Positions 1 to 7,339 of a DNA stretch of 7,339 nt are shown here, one piece after another. A program made the translations under genes and the position numbers. Below the pieces are notes generated by a model that saw nothing but the letters and a program-made list of their open reading frames with translations, was not told the origin of the DNA and ran no database searches. The DNA comes from Promethearchaeota archaeon (GTDB taxonomy: Archaea; Asgardarchaeota; Lokiarchaeia; Sigynarchaeales; SOKP01). The stretch covers positions 1 through 7,339 of the forward strand of contig JAUWDN010000043.1 of assembly GCA_030608765.1 (NCBI GenBank), written 5' to 3'. Position 1 is the stretch's first letter. Each line of letters starts with the position of its first letter.

Positions 1-1140
1 ATTGTAGATGCGTTATTAGGTACGGGAATAAAAGGGCAAATAAGAGAACCTATTTCTTCCACGATAGATACGATAAATAGTATTAGAGAAAAAGAAAAAG
101 AACGAATTAAAATTGCTTCAATAGATGTGCCTTCAGGAGTAGATCCAGATACGGGAAAAATTCCCGATAAAGCTGTCAATCCAGATTTAGTTATAACATT
201 CCACAGGATTAAAAAAGGCTTGAAAAAAACGGAAAAATATCAGATAATCGAAAAATCTATTGGTATTCCCCCTGAAGCGAGTATATTCGTCGGGAAAGGC
301 GATTTACTACCAAACTTAAAATACAGAAATGTCGATGCCCATAAAGGAGAATTTGGGAGAGTACTAGTTATTGGTGGTTCAAAAAATTATTCGGGAGCTC
401 CTGCGTATACCTCGTTATCATGCATTCAATTCGGATGCGATTTAGTTATAACTTACGTCCCAGAAGTTGTAGGGAATGTAATCCGTAGTTATTCTCCAAA
501 TATGATAGTGAGAACGAGTCCTGGAGATTGGCTAGCAACAAAAGCTTTAGAAGAAATCTTATACTTGATAGATTGGGCAAATGCGATTGTTATTGGCCCC
601 GGATTGGGAACTGAAATCGCAAGTGAAGAACTCTTAACGAAAATATTAGAAAAAGTCGATATAGCTAAAAAAGCATTTGTTATAGATGCCGACGCTTTAA
701 AATTAATCAAAAATCATCTTGCTTTAGTTAAAGGGAAGAATGTTATTCTAACTCCTCACGAAGGAGAATTAAAGGTAATTTCGGACATTGATTTACCACC
801 CTATAATGAAATTGATCAGAGAGGAACAGAGATATTTAAAATGGCTAAAAGCCTAGATGTTACTTTATTAGTAAAAGGACCATACGATTATATTAGTGAC
901 GGAAAAATGTTAAAGATTAACAAAACGGGATGTCCAGAAATGTCTATTGGCGGAACTGGCGATGTACTTGCCGGTTTATGTGCTAGTTTCTTAACCACTG
1001 GAAATAGTCCATTCCGATCTGCATGCTCTGCCGCTTTTTTGAATGGTTATATAGGAGAATTCTGTAAGAAAACGATAGGACCTCGATTTACGGCAATAGA
1101 TTTGATAAATAACATTAATAACGGAATTTTAAGTTTATAA
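1..1140 (+). CDS. nnr: Bifunctional NAD(P)H-hydrate epimerase/dehydratase, 5'-truncated
   Basis: This is a repair enzyme for hydrated NAD(P)H: the N-terminal YjeF_N domain epimerises NAD(P)HX and the C-terminal ribokinase-like domain dehydrates the S form, with ADP or ATP as cofactor. The frame is open from base 1, so the true start lies upstream; 379 residues are visible and about 120 N-terminal residues are missing compared with full-length bifunctional enzymes of about 500. Visible epimerase motifs are VDALLGTG (visible residues 2-9) and IDVPSGVDPDTG (41-52). The dehydratase domain begins near HKGEFGRVLVIGGS (114-127) and continues with GPGLG (200-204), VIDADAL (227-233), LTPHEGE (250-256) and the catalytic/phosphate loop GGTGDVLAG (317-325). 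Domain order and spacing are normal and no lesion is seen. It is probably housekeeping, unrelated to the genes downstream. The ATG-like call at 127 is an internal GTG valine inside the IDVPSG motif, not a start. Confidence 0.95.
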   Translation: MVDALLGTGIKGQIREPISSTIDTINSIREKEKERIKIASIDVPSGVDPDTGKIPDKAVNPDLVITFHRIKKGLKKTEKYQIIEKSIGIPPEASIFVGKGDLLPNLKYRNVDAHKGEFGRVLVIGGSKNYSGAPAYTSLSCIQFGCDLVITYVPEVVGNVIRSYSPNMIVRTSPGDWLATKALEEILYLIDWANAIVIGPGLGTEIASEELLTKILEKVDIAKKAFVIDADALKLIKNHLALVKGKNVILTPHEGELKVISDIDLPPYNEIDQRGTEIFKMAKSLDVTLLVKGPYDYISDGKMLKINKTGCPEMSIGGTGDVLAGLCASFLTTGNSPFRSACSAAFLNGYIGEFCKKTIGPRFTAIDLINNINNGILSL

Positions 1141-1292: not shown

Positions 1293-2156
1293 TTGGTTGA
1301 GAGCATATTGGGAACTCAAGTATTCAAAATATTACCAGATGGTAACACAGAAGAAAACACAACAGAAGGCGCTATAAAAGATATTCTAAATACGGAAGAG
1401 TGCTACGTAATAGTTGCTGACGAGTATCGTAAAGTATTTCTATGGAAAGGTATTGAGAGTAATGTAAGATCCAAATTTATTGGAGCTAAAAGAAGTCAAG
1501 ACATACGAGGTCAAGTCGGTCTTATGTATGCAGTAATCCCCTTAGATGAAGGCGATGAAGACCCAGATTTTTTAAAGCTAATCGGTGGAAAAACCGAAGG
1601 TGGCATTGCTAAAGCGATTAAAAGCGAAGAACCTCAAGTAAGTAAATCCGCCTCATCAGTTCATCCTTTAAGAGAGAAGGACGCTTTTGGAATTCCAAAA
1701 CCTGCTGAAGGTATGAACATAGCTGGTTCCAGAGACAGAATGACTCAAAATAATGGACCCCTGTATACGGGAAAAGAGTCGTTTTCATCACTCATTCAAG
1801 AAGAAACTCACGTTAATTTTGACTTGATAATGCAAAAATTAGAAGAAATTAAAATACCGGATGGATTTGAAAGAGAACTAATAATTATTGGTGATCACGC
1901 CTACTCTGTCGTCGAGAGAGTTCAAAATTTTCTAGGAAAGAAACAGGTTACCAAGGAGATTTCAAAGGTGGGAGCGATTCCAGAAGGAGTATTTTTTGCT
2001 GAAGACTATTCCCCAAGAATCCTTTCGGAAAATGGTAAGATTCTTGCGATAGAATTCCTTAAACGGATTGGTGGTCCTATGGATGCCAGAGTAGAATACA
2101 AATCCAAGAAGGAAATTCTAAAAGATCAAATTAAAACACAGTTAGAGCATAAATAA
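1293..2156 (+). CDS. Gelsolin-like domain protein, Asgard type
   Basis: This 287-residue protein has one gelsolin-like domain at about residues 8-100. The signature is a short strand ending in VFLWKG (48-53), a helix with KFIGAKRSQDI (61-71), a strand MYAVIPLDEGDEDPDF (78-93) and the closing FLKLIGG (93-99), equivalent to the EF..LLGG end of eukaryotic gelsolin repeats. A polar linker (about 100-160) leads to a second conserved-looking domain (about 165-265), with a strand ELIIIGDHAYSVVERV (195-210) and a segment PEGVFFAEDYSPRIL (230-244), which I cannot assign; the tail is lysine-rich and helical. Gelsolin domains bind, sever or cap actin filaments, usually in a calcium-dependent way, and Asgard gelsolins act on actin in vitro. 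No signal peptide or membrane segment is visible, so it is probably cytosolic. The start is TTG: a TAG stop immediately precedes it at 1290-1292 and the first in-frame ATG falls inside the gelsolin domain. A TTG at 1308 is the alternative. Actin binding is inferred from the family. Confidence 0.8.
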   Translation: MVESILGTQVFKILPDGNTEENTTEGAIKDILNTEECYVIVADEYRKVFLWKGIESNVRSKFIGAKRSQDIRGQVGLMYAVIPLDEGDEDPDFLKLIGGKTEGGIAKAIKSEEPQVSKSASSVHPLREKDAFGIPKPAEGMNIAGSRDRMTQNNGPLYTGKESFSSLIQEETHVNFDLIMQKLEEIKIPDGFERELIIIGDHAYSVVERVQNFLGKKQVTKEISKVGAIPEGVFFAEDYSPRILSENGKILAIEFLKRIGGPMDARVEYKSKKEILKDQIKTQLEHK

Positions 2157-2161
2157 AACGA

Positions 2162-2180
2162 TTTTTTAACTAATTTTTTT
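2162..2180 (+). terminator. Oligo-T terminator after the gelsolin-like gene
   Basis: Two T runs, six T at 2162-2167 and seven T at 2174-2180, begin 6 bp after the stop codon. Paired oligo-T tracts on the coding strand are the typical archaeal intrinsic termination signal. No hairpin is needed or seen. Confidence 0.55.
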
Positions 2181-2269
2181 ATATAATCCATAATTAAGGA
2201 AGTTTTAAACTTTTCTTCATATTAGTTTATTGTAAAGCAATTTATAGGAATTAATCGAAAAACATTCCA

Positions 2270-2286
2270 AAAGTATCTCATACTTT
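2270..2286. repeat. Perfect 7-bp inverted repeat in the long spacer
   Basis: AAAGTAT-CTC-ATACTTT is a perfect dyad with a 3-base spacer in the 255-bp gap between the gelsolin-like and Roadblock genes, about 65 bp upstream of the best promoter candidate. It could be a regulator site or simply an AT-rich chance dyad. The rest of this gap (2181-2411) shows no coding potential that I can support. Confidence 0.4.
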
Positions 2287-2343
2287 ATAGCGAAACTTTA
2301 AAACAATTTGACCTATTAGTTTTATAAATAAAAATATTTAAGT

Positions 2344-2362
2344 CCGAAAATTATATTTTATA
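2344..2362 (+). promoter_or_regulatory. Candidate BRE/TATA promoter of the Roadblock gene
   Basis: CCGAAAA (2344-2350) directly followed by TTATATTTTATA (2351-2362) resembles an archaeal TFB-recognition element plus TATA box. Initiation about 25 bp downstream of the box would leave a leader of about 30 bases before the ATG at 2412. A second TATA-like word, TTTATAAATA at 2321-2330, is an alternative. Confidence 0.35.
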
Positions 2363-2411
2363 TTAATTAAAAAAGAATTGTAATAGAAATTAAAAGTCAG
2401 AGATTATTCAA

Positions 2412-2804
2412 ATGAGCGATTTGACACAAGAGCAAGCCATAGGGCTCTCAAAGTTTCTTGGAAATATTACAGAACATACCGAATTAGAGGCTCTTGCATT
2501 AGTAACTAATGAAGGTCTACGTCTTGCCTTTTCATGCATCCCCGATTACGATGTCGACCCCGATTTATTTTCGAGTTTAAGTGCTGTCGTAATGCAGAGT
2601 GGCCATGATGCTATCAATTCTATGGGTTACACAAATATGTTAGAAGTAGTATTAAGAGGAACTAGCGCTTTCATCATTCTAAGCGGAGCAGGAAGATTCT
2701 TCCTAATGGGTGCTAGCAGAAAAATTGAAGACTTAGGCAAAATTGTCACCGTTTTTCGTTATTACGCGGGCGAAATAGCAAAAAGGTATCCTTTAACTAA
2801 GTAA
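2412..2804 (+). CDS. Roadblock/LC7 domain protein
   Basis: This 130-residue protein is essentially one Roadblock/LC7 domain of the usual length. Residues 5-20 form an N-terminal helix. Strand LEALALVTNEGLRLAFS (25-41) shows the typical alternation with a beta-turn at NEG. A long helix (about 51-69) is followed by the strands MLEVVLRGTSAFIIL and GRFFLMGAS (76-102) and a C-terminal helix (about 105-124). Roadblock proteins are dimeric platforms that bind or regulate small Ras-like GTPases (bacterial MglB, eukaryotic LAMTOR subunits) or serve as dynein light chains; Asgard genomes carry many. No GTPase gene lies in the window, so the partner is unknown. The vWA gene follows after 65 bp and may be functionally coupled. 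The ATG at 2412 begins right before the first helix, and no strong Shine-Dalgarno site precedes it. Confidence 0.85.
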   Translation: MSDLTQEQAIGLSKFLGNITEHTELEALALVTNEGLRLAFSCIPDYDVDPDLFSSLSAVVMQSGHDAINSMGYTNMLEVVLRGTSAFIILSGAGRFFLMGASRKIEDLGKIVTVFRYYAGEIAKRYPLTK

Positions 2805-2841
2805 TTAAACGCGTTTTATTTTATTTACAAAAAAATGGTAA

Positions 2842-2849
2842 TATAAATA
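2842..2849 (+). promoter_or_regulatory. Candidate TATA box placed for a leaderless vWA transcript
   Basis: TATAAATA lies with its centre about 25 bp before the ATG at 2870, the spacing expected when transcription starts at or next to the start codon. The only ribosome-binding candidate is a weak GGAAG at 2855-2859. The gene may therefore have its own leaderless promoter despite the short gap after the Roadblock gene. Confidence 0.4.
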
Positions 2850-2869
2850 AGTATGGAAGTTGATAATTA

Positions 2870-5179
2870 ATGTCAGAAATTAAGATTTTTGTCGATGTAA
2901 GCGAAAGTGCCAAGGATAAAATTGTTATCTGTCAAGACAATGCTGATAAATTAGGAATTAAAAATGGCTCTTCAATTGAAGTTCATAACCCAGATAATGG
3001 AAAAAAAACAACTGCTGTTGTTGAAATTTCTAATATGGTTTTAGATTTTGCGGGTCAAGTTTCTAAAAACATTGTCGATTCACTCGATTTTATGGGGGTT
3101 GAGTTAATCCTTCGACCTATAAGTAGTACAGGATTAGTCACTCCTAAGATACAAGTTCCGAAAGTTCCTAAACCAGCAGTTCCACCTACCACTGCACCAT
3201 CTCAACCAACACTAACTCCTTTACCAACAAAACCGTCTCAAATGACACCATCTAGACCAACGCCTAAACCTCTTCCCGAAACACCATCGCCTTCAGCTCC
3301 AGTTCCTGGTCATGTCCCACTCCCTACTCAACAACCCGAACCTACACCCCCACCTCAGTTAATACCTAAACAAATTCCTCCGCCAGTTCAAACCCCAACA
3401 CCCACTCCACCGCCACAACCAATTATAGCACCTGCACCCACTCCACCACCGCAACCGACTATAGCGCCTATACCCCAATTATCTCCTACGCCTTCACCAC
3501 CAATTCCAATTCCAACTCCATTACCACAAGTTCCACCACCTCAAACGAGTCAACCTCCCACCAGCCAAGCCCCACTACCAATGCCAGGACAAGATTTTGG
3601 TGCTGCCGCACTTCCAGCACATCCATACCCTAATAGAATTGATGTAAACATGTTAGGTAGTCAAAAAAATGGTCTAGTCTTAACTCCTATTGTAGACGCT
3701 TCCATTGAAGGAGGTCGAGTCAAAATAAGTAGTACGGTTGTTCAACAATTAGGATTAGGGCAAGGGATGTTAATTGGATGGGAAGATCCTCTCACGCGTG
3801 CTATAGGTTCTGCTAGGATTGATCAAGGCATGATAGGCCCTTCTGAAATTAGAATGAGTAGAGATACTAAAGAAGATACAAATGTTATCGCCGAACAAAT
3901 AGTAGTATTTTCCACTGAACCTCCAATTCAAAGAGCTTCTGAGCTCATGTTAGAAGTTCAATCGCAACCAAATTTGATGGGCTACGCACTTGTAAGCCCA
4001 AGAACACAACACACACTCTCACTTGTTCAAGATAATATTCTTGCTTTTGAAGACGAACTTACGGGAGCCATCGGAGCAGGTAAAGTAGAAATACTAGAAT
4101 CTGTACCAGATAATACTATAATTATTGATAGTGAAATCTTAGAAGCGTCGGGAATTGGAAGTTTTGAAGTTAGAGTGTATAAAAATCTTCGACCGATAAT
4201 ACCCTTACAAAATATATCGTTAGGAATTTCACCAATTTCAGGTGAAAATATGTGGGAAATAATTAGTACTGCTCGACAAAATGTTGCGTCTCTAAAAGGT
4301 TGGTTAGCTAATTACGTAATATTCAAGGGAATCAAATTAAGATGGAACGCCGTAAATATCGCATGCTCAATACTTTCAACTACTCCGGATTTAACCGGTG
4401 ATATTTTAGCACAAGTTAATGAAAATACTGCTATAAACCTAAGCCCAACTGGCTTAGTTCCTTTCAATGCTATTTTGATCATAGATATTAGCAGAAGTAT
4501 GATGGCCAGGGATGTCCGAGTTGTAAATATCGCTCCCGCTATTGAGGGTATCAAGGCAGCAATGGAATCTCGAGAAATTCAAGAGTTTTTAAAGCACTTC
4601 AAACCGGGCGTTAATGTCCCTAGAAGAATCTCTGCTGCTTTTGCTGCAGTTCTTTTCTTAAGCGAAAAAGTAGGCAGAGGTTTCGGCGAAAAAGTTTCTG
4701 TAATTCGATTTGCAGACGAAGCTCAGATATTACCCTTTGGGAACAACTACTACATGGATTCAGCAAGTGGGAAAAAGGGCGTATTAGAAGATGCCGCGCG
4801 CATGATAGTGGATCGCATAGGAAACGCCTACGGACAATCTACCCGCATGGGGCTAGCAATGATCAAAGCTCACCAAGTTTTAACGGAGTTCGATAAAATG
4901 AGTCCAGAAAATCCCCAACCAACGATGATAATACTTTTAACAGATGGTATCCCAACGGATGGAGACGATTTCCTTAAAACAATCAAGGTATTCGCAGATA
5001 ATCCCAATGTTGTAATTTACATCGTCGGACTCGGAAATCCTGACGACGAAATGATGACCAGAGCGGCAGCATTATGTGGAGGAGAGTATTTCAAGCCAGA
5101 AGACGCTGGTGAGCTTTTAGTGTGGTACTCCAAACGAGCTCGGGATTTAACTGTTAAGATGAAAGCACATAAAGATTAA
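2870..5179 (+). CDS. Multidomain vWA protein with barrel-like modules and a proline-rich linker
   Basis: This 769-residue protein has several regions. Residues 1-84 look like a small beta-barrel of the AbrB/CDC48-N kind, with LGIKNGSSIEVHNPDNGKK (28-46). Residues about 92-250 are a Pro/Thr/Gln-rich, probably disordered linker with several PPP runs. Two more barrel-like modules follow at about 255-350 and 355-440; they share a WEDPLTRAIGSARI / FEDELTGAIGAGKVEI motif (304-317, 393-408). A short helical region leads to a vWA domain at about 530-760. The vWA metal site (MIDAS) looks complete: DISRS (539-543), Thr658 in GQSTR, and Asp692 in LLTDGIPTDG. About 40 extra residues (about 546-585) sit between the MIDAS loop and the first vWA helix. 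vWA domains bind protein ligands through the metal. No signal peptide or transmembrane segment is seen, so it is probably a cytosolic scaffold or regulator. The ligand is unknown; the Roadblock gene just upstream is a candidate partner by position. Confidence 0.8.
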   Translation: MSEIKIFVDVSESAKDKIVICQDNADKLGIKNGSSIEVHNPDNGKKTTAVVEISNMVLDFAGQVSKNIVDSLDFMGVELILRPISSTGLVTPKIQVPKVPKPAVPPTTAPSQPTLTPLPTKPSQMTPSRPTPKPLPETPSPSAPVPGHVPLPTQQPEPTPPPQLIPKQIPPPVQTPTPTPPPQPIIAPAPTPPPQPTIAPIPQLSPTPSPPIPIPTPLPQVPPPQTSQPPTSQAPLPMPGQDFGAAALPAHPYPNRIDVNMLGSQKNGLVLTPIVDASIEGGRVKISSTVVQQLGLGQGMLIGWEDPLTRAIGSARIDQGMIGPSEIRMSRDTKEDTNVIAEQIVVFSTEPPIQRASELMLEVQSQPNLMGYALVSPRTQHTLSLVQDNILAFEDELTGAIGAGKVEILESVPDNTIIIDSEILEASGIGSFEVRVYKNLRPIIPLQNISLGISPISGENMWEIISTARQNVASLKGWLANYVIFKGIKLRWNAVNIACSILSTTPDLTGDILAQVNENTAINLSPTGLVPFNAILIIDISRSMMARDVRVVNIAPAIEGIKAAMESREIQEFLKHFKPGVNVPRRISAAFAAVLFLSEKVGRGFGEKVSVIRFADEAQILPFGNNYYMDSASGKKGVLEDAARMIVDRIGNAYGQSTRMGLAMIKAHQVLTEFDKMSPENPQPTMIILLTDGIPTDGDDFLKTIKVFADNPNVVIYIVGLGNPDDEMMTRAAALCGGEYFKPEDAGELLVWYSKRARDLTVKMKAHKD
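3401..3472 (+). repeat. Imperfect 36-bp tandem duplication in the proline-rich linker
   Basis: Two adjacent 36-base units (3401-3436 and 3437-3472) encode PTPPPQPIIAPA and PTPPPQPTIAPI, differing in two residues and a few silent bases. This is a 12-codon in-frame duplication within a linker that is otherwise irregular, and it suggests that the linker grows by slippage or unequal recombination. Confidence 0.75.
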
Positions 5180-5204
5180 AGTTGTTCCTACTTATTTTTC
5201 TTTT

Positions 5205-5241
5205 ATTAAAATAAAATTTCTTATTTTAATCTTTAAAGATT
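5205..5241. promoter_or_regulatory. Two abutting perfect inverted repeats upstream of the AbrB-ACT gene
   Basis: A perfect 10-bp dyad, ATTAAAATAA (5205-5214) with TTATTTTAAT (5221-5230) around a 6-base spacer, overlaps by three bases a perfect 14-bp palindrome, AATCTTTAAAGATT (5228-5241). The pair lies between the vWA stop (5179) and the AbrB-ACT start, just upstream of TATA-like sequences. It may be an operator, perhaps for autoregulation by the AbrB dimer, or the first dyad, preceded by T-rich sequence at 5194-5204, may act in termination of the vWA transcript. The symmetry is directly visible; the role is inferred. Confidence 0.45.
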
Positions 5242-5261
5242 TAGTAAATTATTGTACTTTC

Positions 5262-5301
5262 TATAAAATTTTTATACTTATAATTTAATACTATTTATAA
5301 C
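5262..5301 (+). promoter_or_regulatory. Candidate promoter region of the AbrB-ACT gene
   Basis: Two TATA-like words are present. TATAAAATT (5262-5270) would give a leader of about 35 bases. TTTATAAC (5294-5301) is centred about 30 bp before the ATG and would give a nearly leaderless transcript. I cannot choose between them; no Shine-Dalgarno site is visible before the ATG, which mildly favours the second. Confidence 0.3.
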
Positions 5302-5327
5302 AAAAACAAACAAATTGTGTGTTTTTA

Positions 5328-5732
5328 ATGAAAGAGGTTAAAATTCTTACAATAGACGAAAGAGGGAGGATCGTTATTCCACAAATCGTAAGGAAATCGT
5401 TAGGGATTACAACTAATTCACAACTTATGATGGTCAGCGACTCAGAGATTAAGGAAATAAAGATTACTCCAATTGGTTTACGGAATGAAAGCAATCTCAT
5501 TAAATTAAGGATTACCATGGGAGATACTCCTGGAGCGTTGGCAAAATTAGCAACTACTTTTGGAGATTTAAATCTTAGCATGATGTATAGCGAAGCAGTC
5601 ATAGTTGAGAAAGACAAAACAGCGGTATGGACAGTTATTTCAGAGAGTCCAAATTTTTCCTCAGAAGAACTTGAAAAAGTTTTAAAAGAAAAGGGAGAAG
5701 CGCTTAGAGTAGAATTCCTATCGTTAGAATGA
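5328..5732 (+). CDS. AbrB-type DNA-binding plus ACT domain transcription regulator
   Basis: This 134-residue protein has an N-terminal SpoVT/AbrB swapped-hairpin domain (residues 1-47), recognised by VKILTIDERGRIVIPQIVRK (4-23) followed by LGI and a strand pair. A C-terminal ACT domain (about 57-131) begins LIKLRITMGDTPGALAKLA (57-75), the usual D.PGAL..L turn and helix where ACT domains bind small ligands, often amino acids. AbrB domains dimerise and bind AT-rich DNA, so this is probably a ligand-responsive transcription factor; the ligand is not readable from sequence. I place the start at the ATG (5328), which puts AbrB strand one directly after Met. An in-frame GTG at 5319 would add only MFL. 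The upstream dyads at 5205-5241 are candidate binding sites. Its target could be its own promoter or the neighbouring genes. Confidence 0.85.
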   Translation: MKEVKILTIDERGRIVIPQIVRKSLGITTNSQLMMVSDSEIKEIKITPIGLRNESNLIKLRITMGDTPGALAKLATTFGDLNLSMMYSEAVIVEKDKTAVWTVISESPNFSSEELEKVLKEKGEALRVEFLSLE

Positions 5733-5770
5733 GATATATTAATTAATTATTAGATTGATGATTAAGTCGT

Positions 5771-6511
5771 ATGGCTAAAAAGAAGAAGAAGGATAAAGAA
5801 AAACCAAAAAGTGTTAAAGAAAAACCAAAAAGCAAAGTTCTTCTCGATAATATAGATAATGTTTTGAAATCGTCTAAGAAAACCGAATCAGCTCTACACA
5901 GCATGCTTAAAGGTGTCACCGAGGAAAAAGTATTTATCGCACCAAAAGAAGAAGACACCAAAATTGCACCTCAACTTTCTTATGAAACCAAGAAACACAT
6001 CGCAGAAGATTATGTATTGGAAGATGTTTCACTCACAAAGAGAGATTCTATTGAGAAGAGAAAACCTATTTCAACAACACTGGAAAAGAATAAGACTACG
6101 ATTAAATCCCCAAGTACAACTCAGTCGCCTTCATTCTCTAAGAAAGATGATATATATGTTAAGCTAGCTGGATTTTTTGAAGGAGTATTTGACAGTTACG
6201 TAGAGAGATATAATCAATGGGAAAATTCGATATCTTCCATTCTTTCAATTCTGAGAAAAATGAGAAAAATAACTAAGAAAAACACTGAGGAATTAGTATC
6301 ATCAATAGGAGGTACTTATGATAGAATTCAATACAATTTGGAGCAATTCAAATTAAAAAGAGATGTAGTCGAAAAGATTGCAGATATTGACGTTGAATCT
6401 ATGTCTAGTGAATTTAAAAAAGTCTTAGGGTTATTAGAATTACAAGTAAAAGAATATCAATTAAAAAAACTATCAGACGAGTATTTTCACCAACAAAAAA
6501 CTTTTTACTAA
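5771..6511 (+). CDS. Lysine-rich predicted coiled-coil protein of unknown function
   Basis: I do not recognise a family for this 246-residue protein. It opens with a strongly basic run (AKKKKKDKEKPK) and a repeated KEKPKS motif (residues 9-14 and 16-21). A polar, charge-rich and probably disordered segment follows to about residue 125, with a Ser/Thr/Pro cluster near 107-123. Residues about 127-240 look almost entirely helical, with regular hydrophobic spacing from YVKLAGFFEGVFDSYVERY (129-147) to the LLELQVKEYQLKKL stretch (221-234), consistent with a coiled coil or helical bundle. There is no signal peptide or transmembrane segment. It starts 38 bp after the AbrB-ACT stop and ends 45 bp before the actin-related gene, so it may be transcribed with either. 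The basic tail could bind nucleic acid, acidic lipid or an acidic filament; this is speculation. The ATG at 5771 is well supported because an in-frame TGA lies at 5759-5761. Confidence 0.7.
   Translation: MAKKKKKDKEKPKSVKEKPKSKVLLDNIDNVLKSSKKTESALHSMLKGVTEEKVFIAPKEEDTKIAPQLSYETKKHIAEDYVLEDVSLTKRDSIEKRKPISTTLEKNKTTIKSPSTTQSPSFSKKDDIYVKLAGFFEGVFDSYVERYNQWENSISSILSILRKMRKITKKNTEELVSSIGGTYDRIQYNLEQFKLKRDVVEKIADIDVESMSSEFKKVLGLLELQVKEYQLKKLSDEYFHQQKTFY
5794..5832 (+). repeat. 21-bp in-frame direct repeat in a basic N-terminus
   Basis: The 18-base word TAAAGAAAAACCAAAAAG occurs at 5794-5811 and, spaced by one 21-base period, at 5815-5832 (identical apart from position in the unit). It encodes the duplicated KEKPKS motif of the coiled-coil protein and is best explained as a local in-frame duplication. 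Confidence 0.7.
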
Positions 6512-6556
6512 TTGCTTTGCTTAATAAATCTCGATATTAACAATTTAAATAAAATT

Positions 6557-7339
6557 ATGTCAAATACGGATAACAGCCAATTACTTCCACTAATTTTAAA
6601 CATAGGTAGTAACAATTTTCGATTAGGTTGGGCAGGAGGGGACTTTCCGGATATTATTGCCCCTAGTATTTATGTTGATGTTACGGATTATTTATTTAGT
6701 TCTAATATAATTGCATCCGACACGATAAATGGTTTAGAAGATATTTTTTTAGAACCGAATAATCAGCCTCATTTAGTCGGTCATGATGCGTTAAAGTATC
6801 AAAATATTTTAAAAATACGTGAATTTAGTAAAGAGAGTAATTATAATATTCTTTTAAAAATTTTTTCTCACTATTATCAACAATTAAATATTACAGAGGA
6901 ATTCCAATTTAAGCAACCTCTTATAATTATTACTCCATTCTATAAATCAGAGTTAGAAAAAACAAAACTTCAAGAAATATTCTTTAATTCGTTAAATTTT
7001 CCTTATATCCTATTTTTACCAGAGACTCAGGCTATTTTGTCAACTTTACAAAAATCTAGCGGGGTAGTCGTTAATATTGGAGAGTCTTACACTTATATTT
7101 CTACAATTTTTCACGGGTTTACCAACATAATGGCTAGAGACATGTTTCCAATAACAGGATCCGATATAACTAAGTATTTTCTAAATTTAATTTTAAGTAG
7201 AATTAGTGCAACTAAAAACATTTACCTTGATAAAGCAATAGCAAAAGAGATCAAAGAAAAAATATCTTTATGTGTACTTGATCCTAATAGAGAAAAAAAA
7301 AGAGTAAAAGAAGGCTTAACAAAATACGATCGAGTAATC
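6557..7339 (+). CDS. Divergent actin-related protein (Asgard Arp), 3'-truncated
   Basis: An ATG at 6557 opens a frame that runs off the window end; 261 residues are visible, about two thirds of a 375-residue actin. Actin landmarks appear in order: LNIGSNNFRLGWAGGDFPD (residues 14-32, actin's first phosphate loop), PSIY (36-39), PLIIITPFYKSELEKTKL (121-138), PETQAILS (155-162, with Gln158 matching the catalytic Gln137 of actin), VVVNIGESYTYIS (170-182, second phosphate loop), ITGSDITKYFLNLI (199-212) and IAKEIKEKISLCVLD (228-242). It is much shorter in the DNase-loop region than actin and lacks the strict actin loop residues. The aspartates equivalent to actin Asp11 and Asp154 are Asn15 and Asn173, and Asp157 is Glu176, so ATP binding or hydrolysis is probably altered. 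That points to an Arp-like regulatory or structural subunit rather than the main filament-forming actin. A TATA-like TTAATAAAT at 6521-6529 could drive a short-leader transcript. Confidence 0.85.
   Translation, partial: MSNTDNSQLLPLILNIGSNNFRLGWAGGDFPDIIAPSIYVDVTDYLFSSNIIASDTINGLEDIFLEPNNQPHLVGHDALKYQNILKIREFSKESNYNILLKIFSHYYQQLNITEEFQFKQPLIIITPFYKSELEKTKLQEIFFNSLNFPYILFLPETQAILSTLQKSSGVVVNIGESYTYISTIFHGFTNIMARDMFPITGSDITKYFLNLILSRISATKNIYLDKAIAKEIKEKISLCVLDPNREKKRVKEGLTKYDRVI

Follow-up and report, generated by a model that had tools for sequence, protein, structure and literature searches.

A fixed gene neighborhood of a divergent actin-related protein in Lokiarchaeota and its candidate CHAT and coiled-coil partners

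Lokiarchaea are related to the ancestor from which complex cells arose. Here we analyzed a 7,339-nt stretch of a Lokiarchaeia genome (assembly GCA_030608765.1, contig JAUWDN010000043.1; hereafter the window, on which all coordinates are given), which ends within the gene of a divergent actin-related protein (ARP). Its closest described counterparts are the Asgard ARPs and Lokiactin. Ca. L. ossiferum has four actin homologues, Lokiactin and three that cluster with ARPs (PMC9834061), and one genome of our set (G002) likewise has four actin-family matches. The actin superfamily is common to all of these proteins. However, the ARP of the window and its orthologues lie on the separate side of a branch with 100/100 support from Lokiactin-type rows and yeast actin, carry a degenerate nucleotide site and have a longer stretch at the D-loop. 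In its accessible parts, PMC9834061 describes no gene neighborhood or CHAT partner for its ARPs, which may or may not be identical with the ARP studied here.

In Arp2/3, in dynactin (Arp1) and in the chromatin-related Arps, a divergent actin fold is a subunit of a complex (PMC12050087, accessible parts), and the ARP of the window may serve in the same way. The 1DGelX gelsolins of Loki combine one gelsolin domain with an extra part, as does the protein GEL of the window; MK-D1 has two such gelsolins and GC14_75 has three (PMC9433394, accessible parts). GEL is placed with them by name and domain count alone, not by sequence comparison. Finally, the protein encoded directly after ARP shares the profile and the motif places of the CHAT family (PF12770), but in nearly all members has Asn in place of the catalytic His and Gln in place of the catalytic Cys.

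The accessible parts of PMC9834061, PMC12993045, PMC12050087, PMC8410842 and PMC9433394 do not describe the cluster. In the open full-text literature, outside which most subscription papers lie, so that absence from print does not follow, we found no paper joining Asgard and the CHAT domain, none uniting Lokiarchaeota, von Willebrand and gelsolin, and none combining the actin and Roadblock terms sought. Although Asgard ARPs as such are known, the accessible parts of the literature consulted assign them neither partners nor functions.

We propose, with a probability of roughly 0.57, that ARP, a coiled-coil protein (CC) and the CHAT protein form one non-enzymatic complex that acts on Lokiactin and is anchored by CC, with the gelsolin-Roadblock-vWA block of the window separable from it. 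A partner set that is fixed by gene order and jointly absent with ARP makes the function of an Asgard ARP directly testable. It would bear on the question whether Arp complexes of several subunits are older than eukaryotes, and on a role for a caspase-like fold in archaea that does not involve proteolysis.

Gene order and the joint absence of ARP and CHAT

According to the open reading frame listing, the window has seven main genes, all on the plus strand. These genes and two of their parts are as follows.

1..1140, plus strand: NNR, NAD(P)H-hydrate epimerase/dehydratase (PF01256, 2.2e-46; PF03853, 9.1e-18), the left flank, regarded as outside the system and used as the control gene
1293..2156, plus strand: GEL, one gelsolin domain and a C-terminal X domain, 1DGelX-like; start at TTG 1293 or TTG 1308
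1806..2078, plus strand: X domain of GEL (about residues 172-262), conserved among the Asgard relatives that were sampled
2412..2804, plus strand: ROB, single-domain Roadblock/LC7 protein (PF03259, 4.3e-5; PDB 7f8m, 0.0051)
2870..5179, plus strand: VWA, with N-terminal domain, proline-rich linker, middle domain and C-terminal vWA domain (PF00092, 1.9e-8)
3146..3619, plus strand: proline-rich linker of VWA, about residues 93-250, by proline content
5319..5732, plus strand: ABR, AbrB-type plus ACT, first gene of block B; start at GTG 5319 or ATG 5328
5771..6511, plus strand: CC, with Lys-rich N terminus, variable linker and conserved C-terminal half, adjoining ARP
6557..7339, plus strand: ARP, divergent actin-related protein (PF00022, 2.9e-20), cut by the window end; the reading frame opens at TTG 6512 and the likely start is ATG 6557

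To compare the neighborhood across related genomes, VWA was searched in 227 genomes of the phylum. It matched in 133, of which 59 reached E ≤ 2.4e-112. These 59 and G152, which has an N-terminal VWA piece at a contig end, made up the set of 60 genomes for adjacency counts. Gene stretches were taken around 60 VWA matches (58 of the 59, with G149 left out, plus the short relatives in G083 and G204), and 20 more were taken around GEL, CC or ARP. Labeling of the genes in these stretches gave the conserved order NNR-GEL-ROB-VWA-ABR-CC-ARP-CHAT-PLD-like-methyltransferase.

Counted once per genome, GEL came next after NNR in 34 of 35 loci, ROB after GEL in 39 of 42 (with another 2 inverted), and VWA after ROB in 38 of 44. 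The gene directly before ABR was VWA in 26 of 46 cases and ROB in 3 of 46; counted from VWA, ABR followed directly in 26 of 59 loci, a total in which genomes lacking block B and loci with intervening genes are counted too. Beyond this joint the order was again tight: ABR was followed by CC (49/50), CC by ARP (49/56), ARP by CHAT (49/49) and CHAT by the PLD-like gene (39/41), and the gene before ARP was CC in 48 of 49 loci. The PLD-like gene was followed by the methyltransferase in 24 of 41 cases, with another 3 inverted. There are thus two tight gene blocks, block A (GEL-ROB-VWA) and block B (ABR-CC-ARP, with CHAT and the PLD-like gene beyond the window). The first-pass annotation had placed GEL-ROB-VWA-ABR-CC-ARP on one strand in an Asgard archaeon and had proposed a comparison across related genomes; strand, order and origin all held, and the neighborhood was found to be conserved in Lokiarchaeota, so that the refuting outcome named in that annotation, a lack of conservation in every related genome, did not arise. 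The CHAT gene had been invisible to that annotation because it lies outside the window.

We then examined the ARP side of block B. Actin-family matches occur in 208 of the 227 genomes, and the cluster-type ARPs are distinct among them, with 52 genomes at E ≤ 1.8e-97 followed by a gap to 4e-63. CC adjoins ARP, in the same direction, in 52 of 52 genomes, and CHAT adjoins ARP in 51 of the 51 genomes that have both; in G112, where ARP was found without CHAT, ARP sits at a contig edge. The counts become 55/55 and 54/54 when the weaker ARPs of G090, G096 and G097 are included because they lie beside CC and CHAT. The tree groups these three with the cluster ARPs (100/100, with a long-branch warning). 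The gene order is retained where ARP identity is down to 31-34% and CHAT identity to 25-27%. Fisher p-values for the adjacency ignore kinship and were not used. Taken over the phylum, CC matched in 61 of 227 genomes and the CHAT protein in 57, with the match in G086 reaching just 1e-6 and covering the CHAT part alone.

Six genomes have CC without ARP (G091-G094, G099 and G100). In G091-G094, CC stands directly before the PLD-like gene with gaps of 12-117 bp, and both ARP and CHAT went undetected; the three actin-family matches of G093 belong to other types. In G099, ARP was not found, and what comes after CC is a 205-aa CHAT remnant interrupted by stop codons. In G100, ARP was not found and the contigs are broken, and this genome was left out of the losses. 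Placed on the CC tree, the six genomes require four changes (G100 included, with long-branch warnings). ARP and CHAT, absent jointly, seem to have moved as a unit, whether lost or gained.

It could be argued that the neighborhood is plain synteny, kept because Lokiarchaeal chromosomes rearrange slowly and not because the genes are functionally linked, and the NNR-GEL adjacency, which joins a control gene to the cluster, favors this. We consider it very unlikely. The genes upstream of NNR vary, with the commonest family in 10 of 28 cases, and none of the ten families was seen there in 30 loci. In addition, the CC-ARP-CHAT trio stays joined where it is distant from VWA (G004, G101 and G001), and the absences of ARP and CHAT coincide.

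Residue losses in ARP and CHAT

ARP belongs to the actin/Arp superfamily, since PF00022 matched the window fragment at 2.9e-20 and a full-length orthologue at 1.6e-49. The best 60 of 137 solved-structure matches to ARP were named actin, and none of them Arp2 or Arp3. Outside the Lokiactin-type clade, the 31 cluster ARPs are split from the 37 other rows by a 100/100 branch, which carries a long-branch warning. We aligned 50 cluster ARPs (those longer than 330 aa and the window fragment) with yeast actin. D154 is kept in 2 of the 50, H161 in none, and K18 in 5, with Arg in 43; we take these three to be residues of the actin nucleotide and Mg site. No claim is made on Q137, which is alignment-dependent. 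The residue pattern indicates a degenerate nucleotide site in ARP. At the D-loop, ARP has a longer stretch than the Lokiactin-type rows and yeast actin.

At one ARP locus (L054, in G150), a short ARP piece with 95% identity to the ARP of L055 lies before a full-length ARP of only 66% identity, which looks like a recent replacement of ARP at the locus.

The CHAT protein has about 865 aa. PF12770, which we take to belong to the caspase clan, matched it at 1.5e-6 (28.3 bits, with a cut-off of 24), and several orthologues matched the same family independently. A profile-profile comparison with canonical Asgard CHAT proteins (6 of 12 loci plus L198, picked for their His and Cys motifs) gave a probability of 98.7%. 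A search of the CHAT protein against solved structures returned nothing credible. The place of the catalytic His is Asn in 120 of 120 relatives and that of the catalytic Cys is Gln in 119 of 120; within the loci set the counts are 34 of 35 for Asn and 32 of 35 for Gln. From these replacements, the CHAT domain is most likely catalytically dead. The PLD-like protein (L055:17106-17654) is small, with a helical N-terminal stretch and a PLD-like domain that NCBIfam matched weakly to NucT (3e-4). Its HKD motif looks lost in a consensus read by eye. The N6-methyltransferase, next to the PLD-like gene, is the loosest member of the cluster.

CC has a Lys-rich start in most of the members listed, and its C-terminal half is conserved. 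In the deep CC homologues of L145 and L147 (G090 and G097), the linker has proline runs, as VWA has in the core group.

ABR matched AbrB above the cut-off (TIGR01439, 29.2 bits and 28.3 bits, respectively). PRK08577 matched it at 3.6e-25, under its own cut-off, and the ACT domain was weak by Pfam.

A candidate ARP-CC-CHAT complex

In the complex that we propose, ARP, degenerate in its nucleotide site, would play a structural part and be held by CC and by the large protein with the dead CHAT domain. Such a complex would be a non-enzymatic scaffold, and most simply it would bind or cap Lokiactin filaments, with Lokiactin as the presumed client. The Lys-rich N terminus of CC may attach the filaments to membrane or DNA, and ABR may act as the regulator of the block B complex. 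Block A would be separable and may act on the same cytoskeleton.

Several observations weigh against this proposal. Adjacency alone is no proof of a shared function, as the metabolic gene NNR adjoins GEL in nearly every locus. No direct link between ARP and Lokiactin was found, and we infer the client. ARP keeps D11 in 45 of 50 sequences and G13, G156 and K213 in 50 of 50, so that ARP may still bind nucleotide. The absence in G091-G094 holds among the matches listed, and a very divergent ARP may lie elsewhere in these genomes. CC and the PLD-like gene persist there without ARP and CHAT, which suggests some independent role for both. Finally, rate covariation is noisy. In the larger set, from which fourteen divergent genomes were excluded beforehand, the partial r of ARP-CHAT was 0.60 (n = 34), in favor of the proposal, but the control pairs NNR-CC and NNR-ABR reached 0.64 and 0.59. 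Because the control gene NNR is also high, covariation is weak evidence in either direction, and we placed the weight on gene order and joint absence.

The adjacency of CHAT, a PLD-like domain and an N6-methyltransferase, in a block headed by an AbrB/ACT protein, could also indicate that block B is not cytoskeletal but a regulatory or defense cassette with re-used Arp and CHAT folds and the methyltransferase as its effector. We regard this as improbable. PADLOC at E ≤ 0.01 recognized none of the five proteins CHAT, PLD-like, ARP, CC and ABR, the catalytic residues of CHAT are replaced, and the methyltransferase is the most loosely attached of the genes (24/41 after the PLD-like gene, inverted in 3). 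A defense system as such was set aside, as PADLOC matched only this methyltransferase.

A broader version of the ARP-CC-CHAT proposal is put forward tentatively, and we hold it to be unlikely in full: an ancient and so far undescribed Arp complex of dead-enzyme folds and a basic coiled-coil protein, which would form a fixed cytoskeletal scaffold on Lokiactin. If this version is true, Arp-based complexes would not have been confined to eukaryotes, and one subunit would be caspase-like. The dead-enzyme folds would be the degenerate Arp, the Asn/Gln CHAT domain and perhaps the PLD-like domain without a recognizable HKD motif.

Block A and its joint with block B

To explore how far block A belongs with block B, we used the 60 VWA stretches, of which 11 come from genomes without a CC match, leaving 49 genomes with both. 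Of these, 45 are decidable, and in 36 of the 45 the block B genes come after VWA at a distance of no more than 5 kb. In the other 9 they are absent from at least 7 kb downstream of VWA, and 4 further stretches end too early, at contig ends. The nine genomes are G001, G004, G099, G101 and the divergent G090, G091, G092, G096 and G097, and in all of them block B is intact or partly intact elsewhere. In 33 of the 47 genomes with both genes, VWA and ARP point the same way and are at most 3.5 kb apart. GEL-ROB still stands beside ABR in G108, G155 and G157, which have no VWA match; in G108, three genes intervene between ABR and CC. The blocks are thus usually side by side yet separable, and with 36 close and 9 apart, they usually travel together but can part.

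These results bear on the reading of the first-pass annotation, in which GEL, ROB, VWA and CC belong with ARP to one actin-regulating system; extended to CHAT, it would have VWA as a scaffold and a ROB-linked Ras-like GTPase encoded elsewhere. The usual adjacency of the two halves, the GEL-ROB pair beside ABR without VWA and the predicted actin-binding fold of GEL speak for it. In the 16 genomes with all nine genes, covariation was also in its favor, with 0.62 for GEL-CHAT, 0.59 for GEL-CC and 0.40 for GEL-ARP. However, the halves part in nine genomes, among them G004, G001 and G101, other genes often stand between VWA and ABR, and in the larger set ARP-GEL fell to 0.11 and ARP-VWA to 0.02. 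The stretches from genomes without CC also count against it, as do the other genes, described below, that often adjoin VWA in those or other divergent genomes. We consider one system for all of these genes possible but doubtful. It overlaps with the ARP-CC-CHAT proposal, because both could hold. A direct tie of block A to ARP is plausible but unproven, and the gelsolin-Roadblock-vWA block, though the usual neighbor, should not be assumed to serve ARP.

The gelsolin assignment of GEL is below the Pfam cut-off, but clear in the solved-structure search and in the predicted fold of the N-terminal domain; by that model, this domain has the gelsolin, actin-binding fold. A first GEL structure model from a shallow alignment had a pLDDT of 54 and was unused. 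A second gelsolin domain in GEL is doubtful: the C- and N-domain profiles did not match each other, although the fold lists were filled by the N-terminal domain. The profile of the X domain alone found nothing credible among solved structures (best E, 1.2). Weak matches to family-4 encapsulin models occurred in 24 of 48 members at E ≤ 0.1 (best, 2.3e-4) and in 9 of 24 domain-only members (best, 4.1e-5). Identity as a family 4 encapsulin was rejected, since the window domain scored 20 bits where the curated cut-off is 90; in the viral fold library, the sole match at E ≤ 0.001 was a gelsolin-repeat protein.

ROB matched Robl_LC7 just over the curated cut-off (23.6 bits and 23 bits, respectively). 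No Ras-like GTPase was seen in the window or among the 10 flanking proteins of L047 and L055, the two loci whose flanks were scanned. In L088 and L091, ROB is flanked by GEL and VWA but encoded on the opposite strand; the three genes are thus kept together despite one inversion.

The metal-ion-dependent adhesion site (MIDAS) of VWA, which we take to be the motif DxSxS...T...D, is complete, with D539, S541, S543 and T658 in 121 of 121 rows and D692 in 120 of 121. Over residues 96-255 of VWA, the median Pro fraction is 0.34 and the median longest Pro run is 3. According to PMC8410842 (accessible parts), profilins of Heimdall and Thor bind polyproline, whereas the Loki profilins tested did not bind it. 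A profilin role for the VWA linker is therefore possible but not supported, and the same result counts against one system built on VWA as a scaffold.

A plasmid search of the window gave no match, and a scan for sigma-70 promoters and terminators was uninformative for archaea.

VWA homologues outside the core group often lie beside another trio of genes, encoding an unknown protein of 600 aa, a YbdK/GCS2-like carboxylate-amine ligase and an amidohydrolase-like protein. This trio is found in L088, L091, L092, L094 and L099-L102 and in part in L086 and L106, with GEL and ROB also present in four of the loci, which may point to a second set of partners of the vWA protein that is not actin-related.

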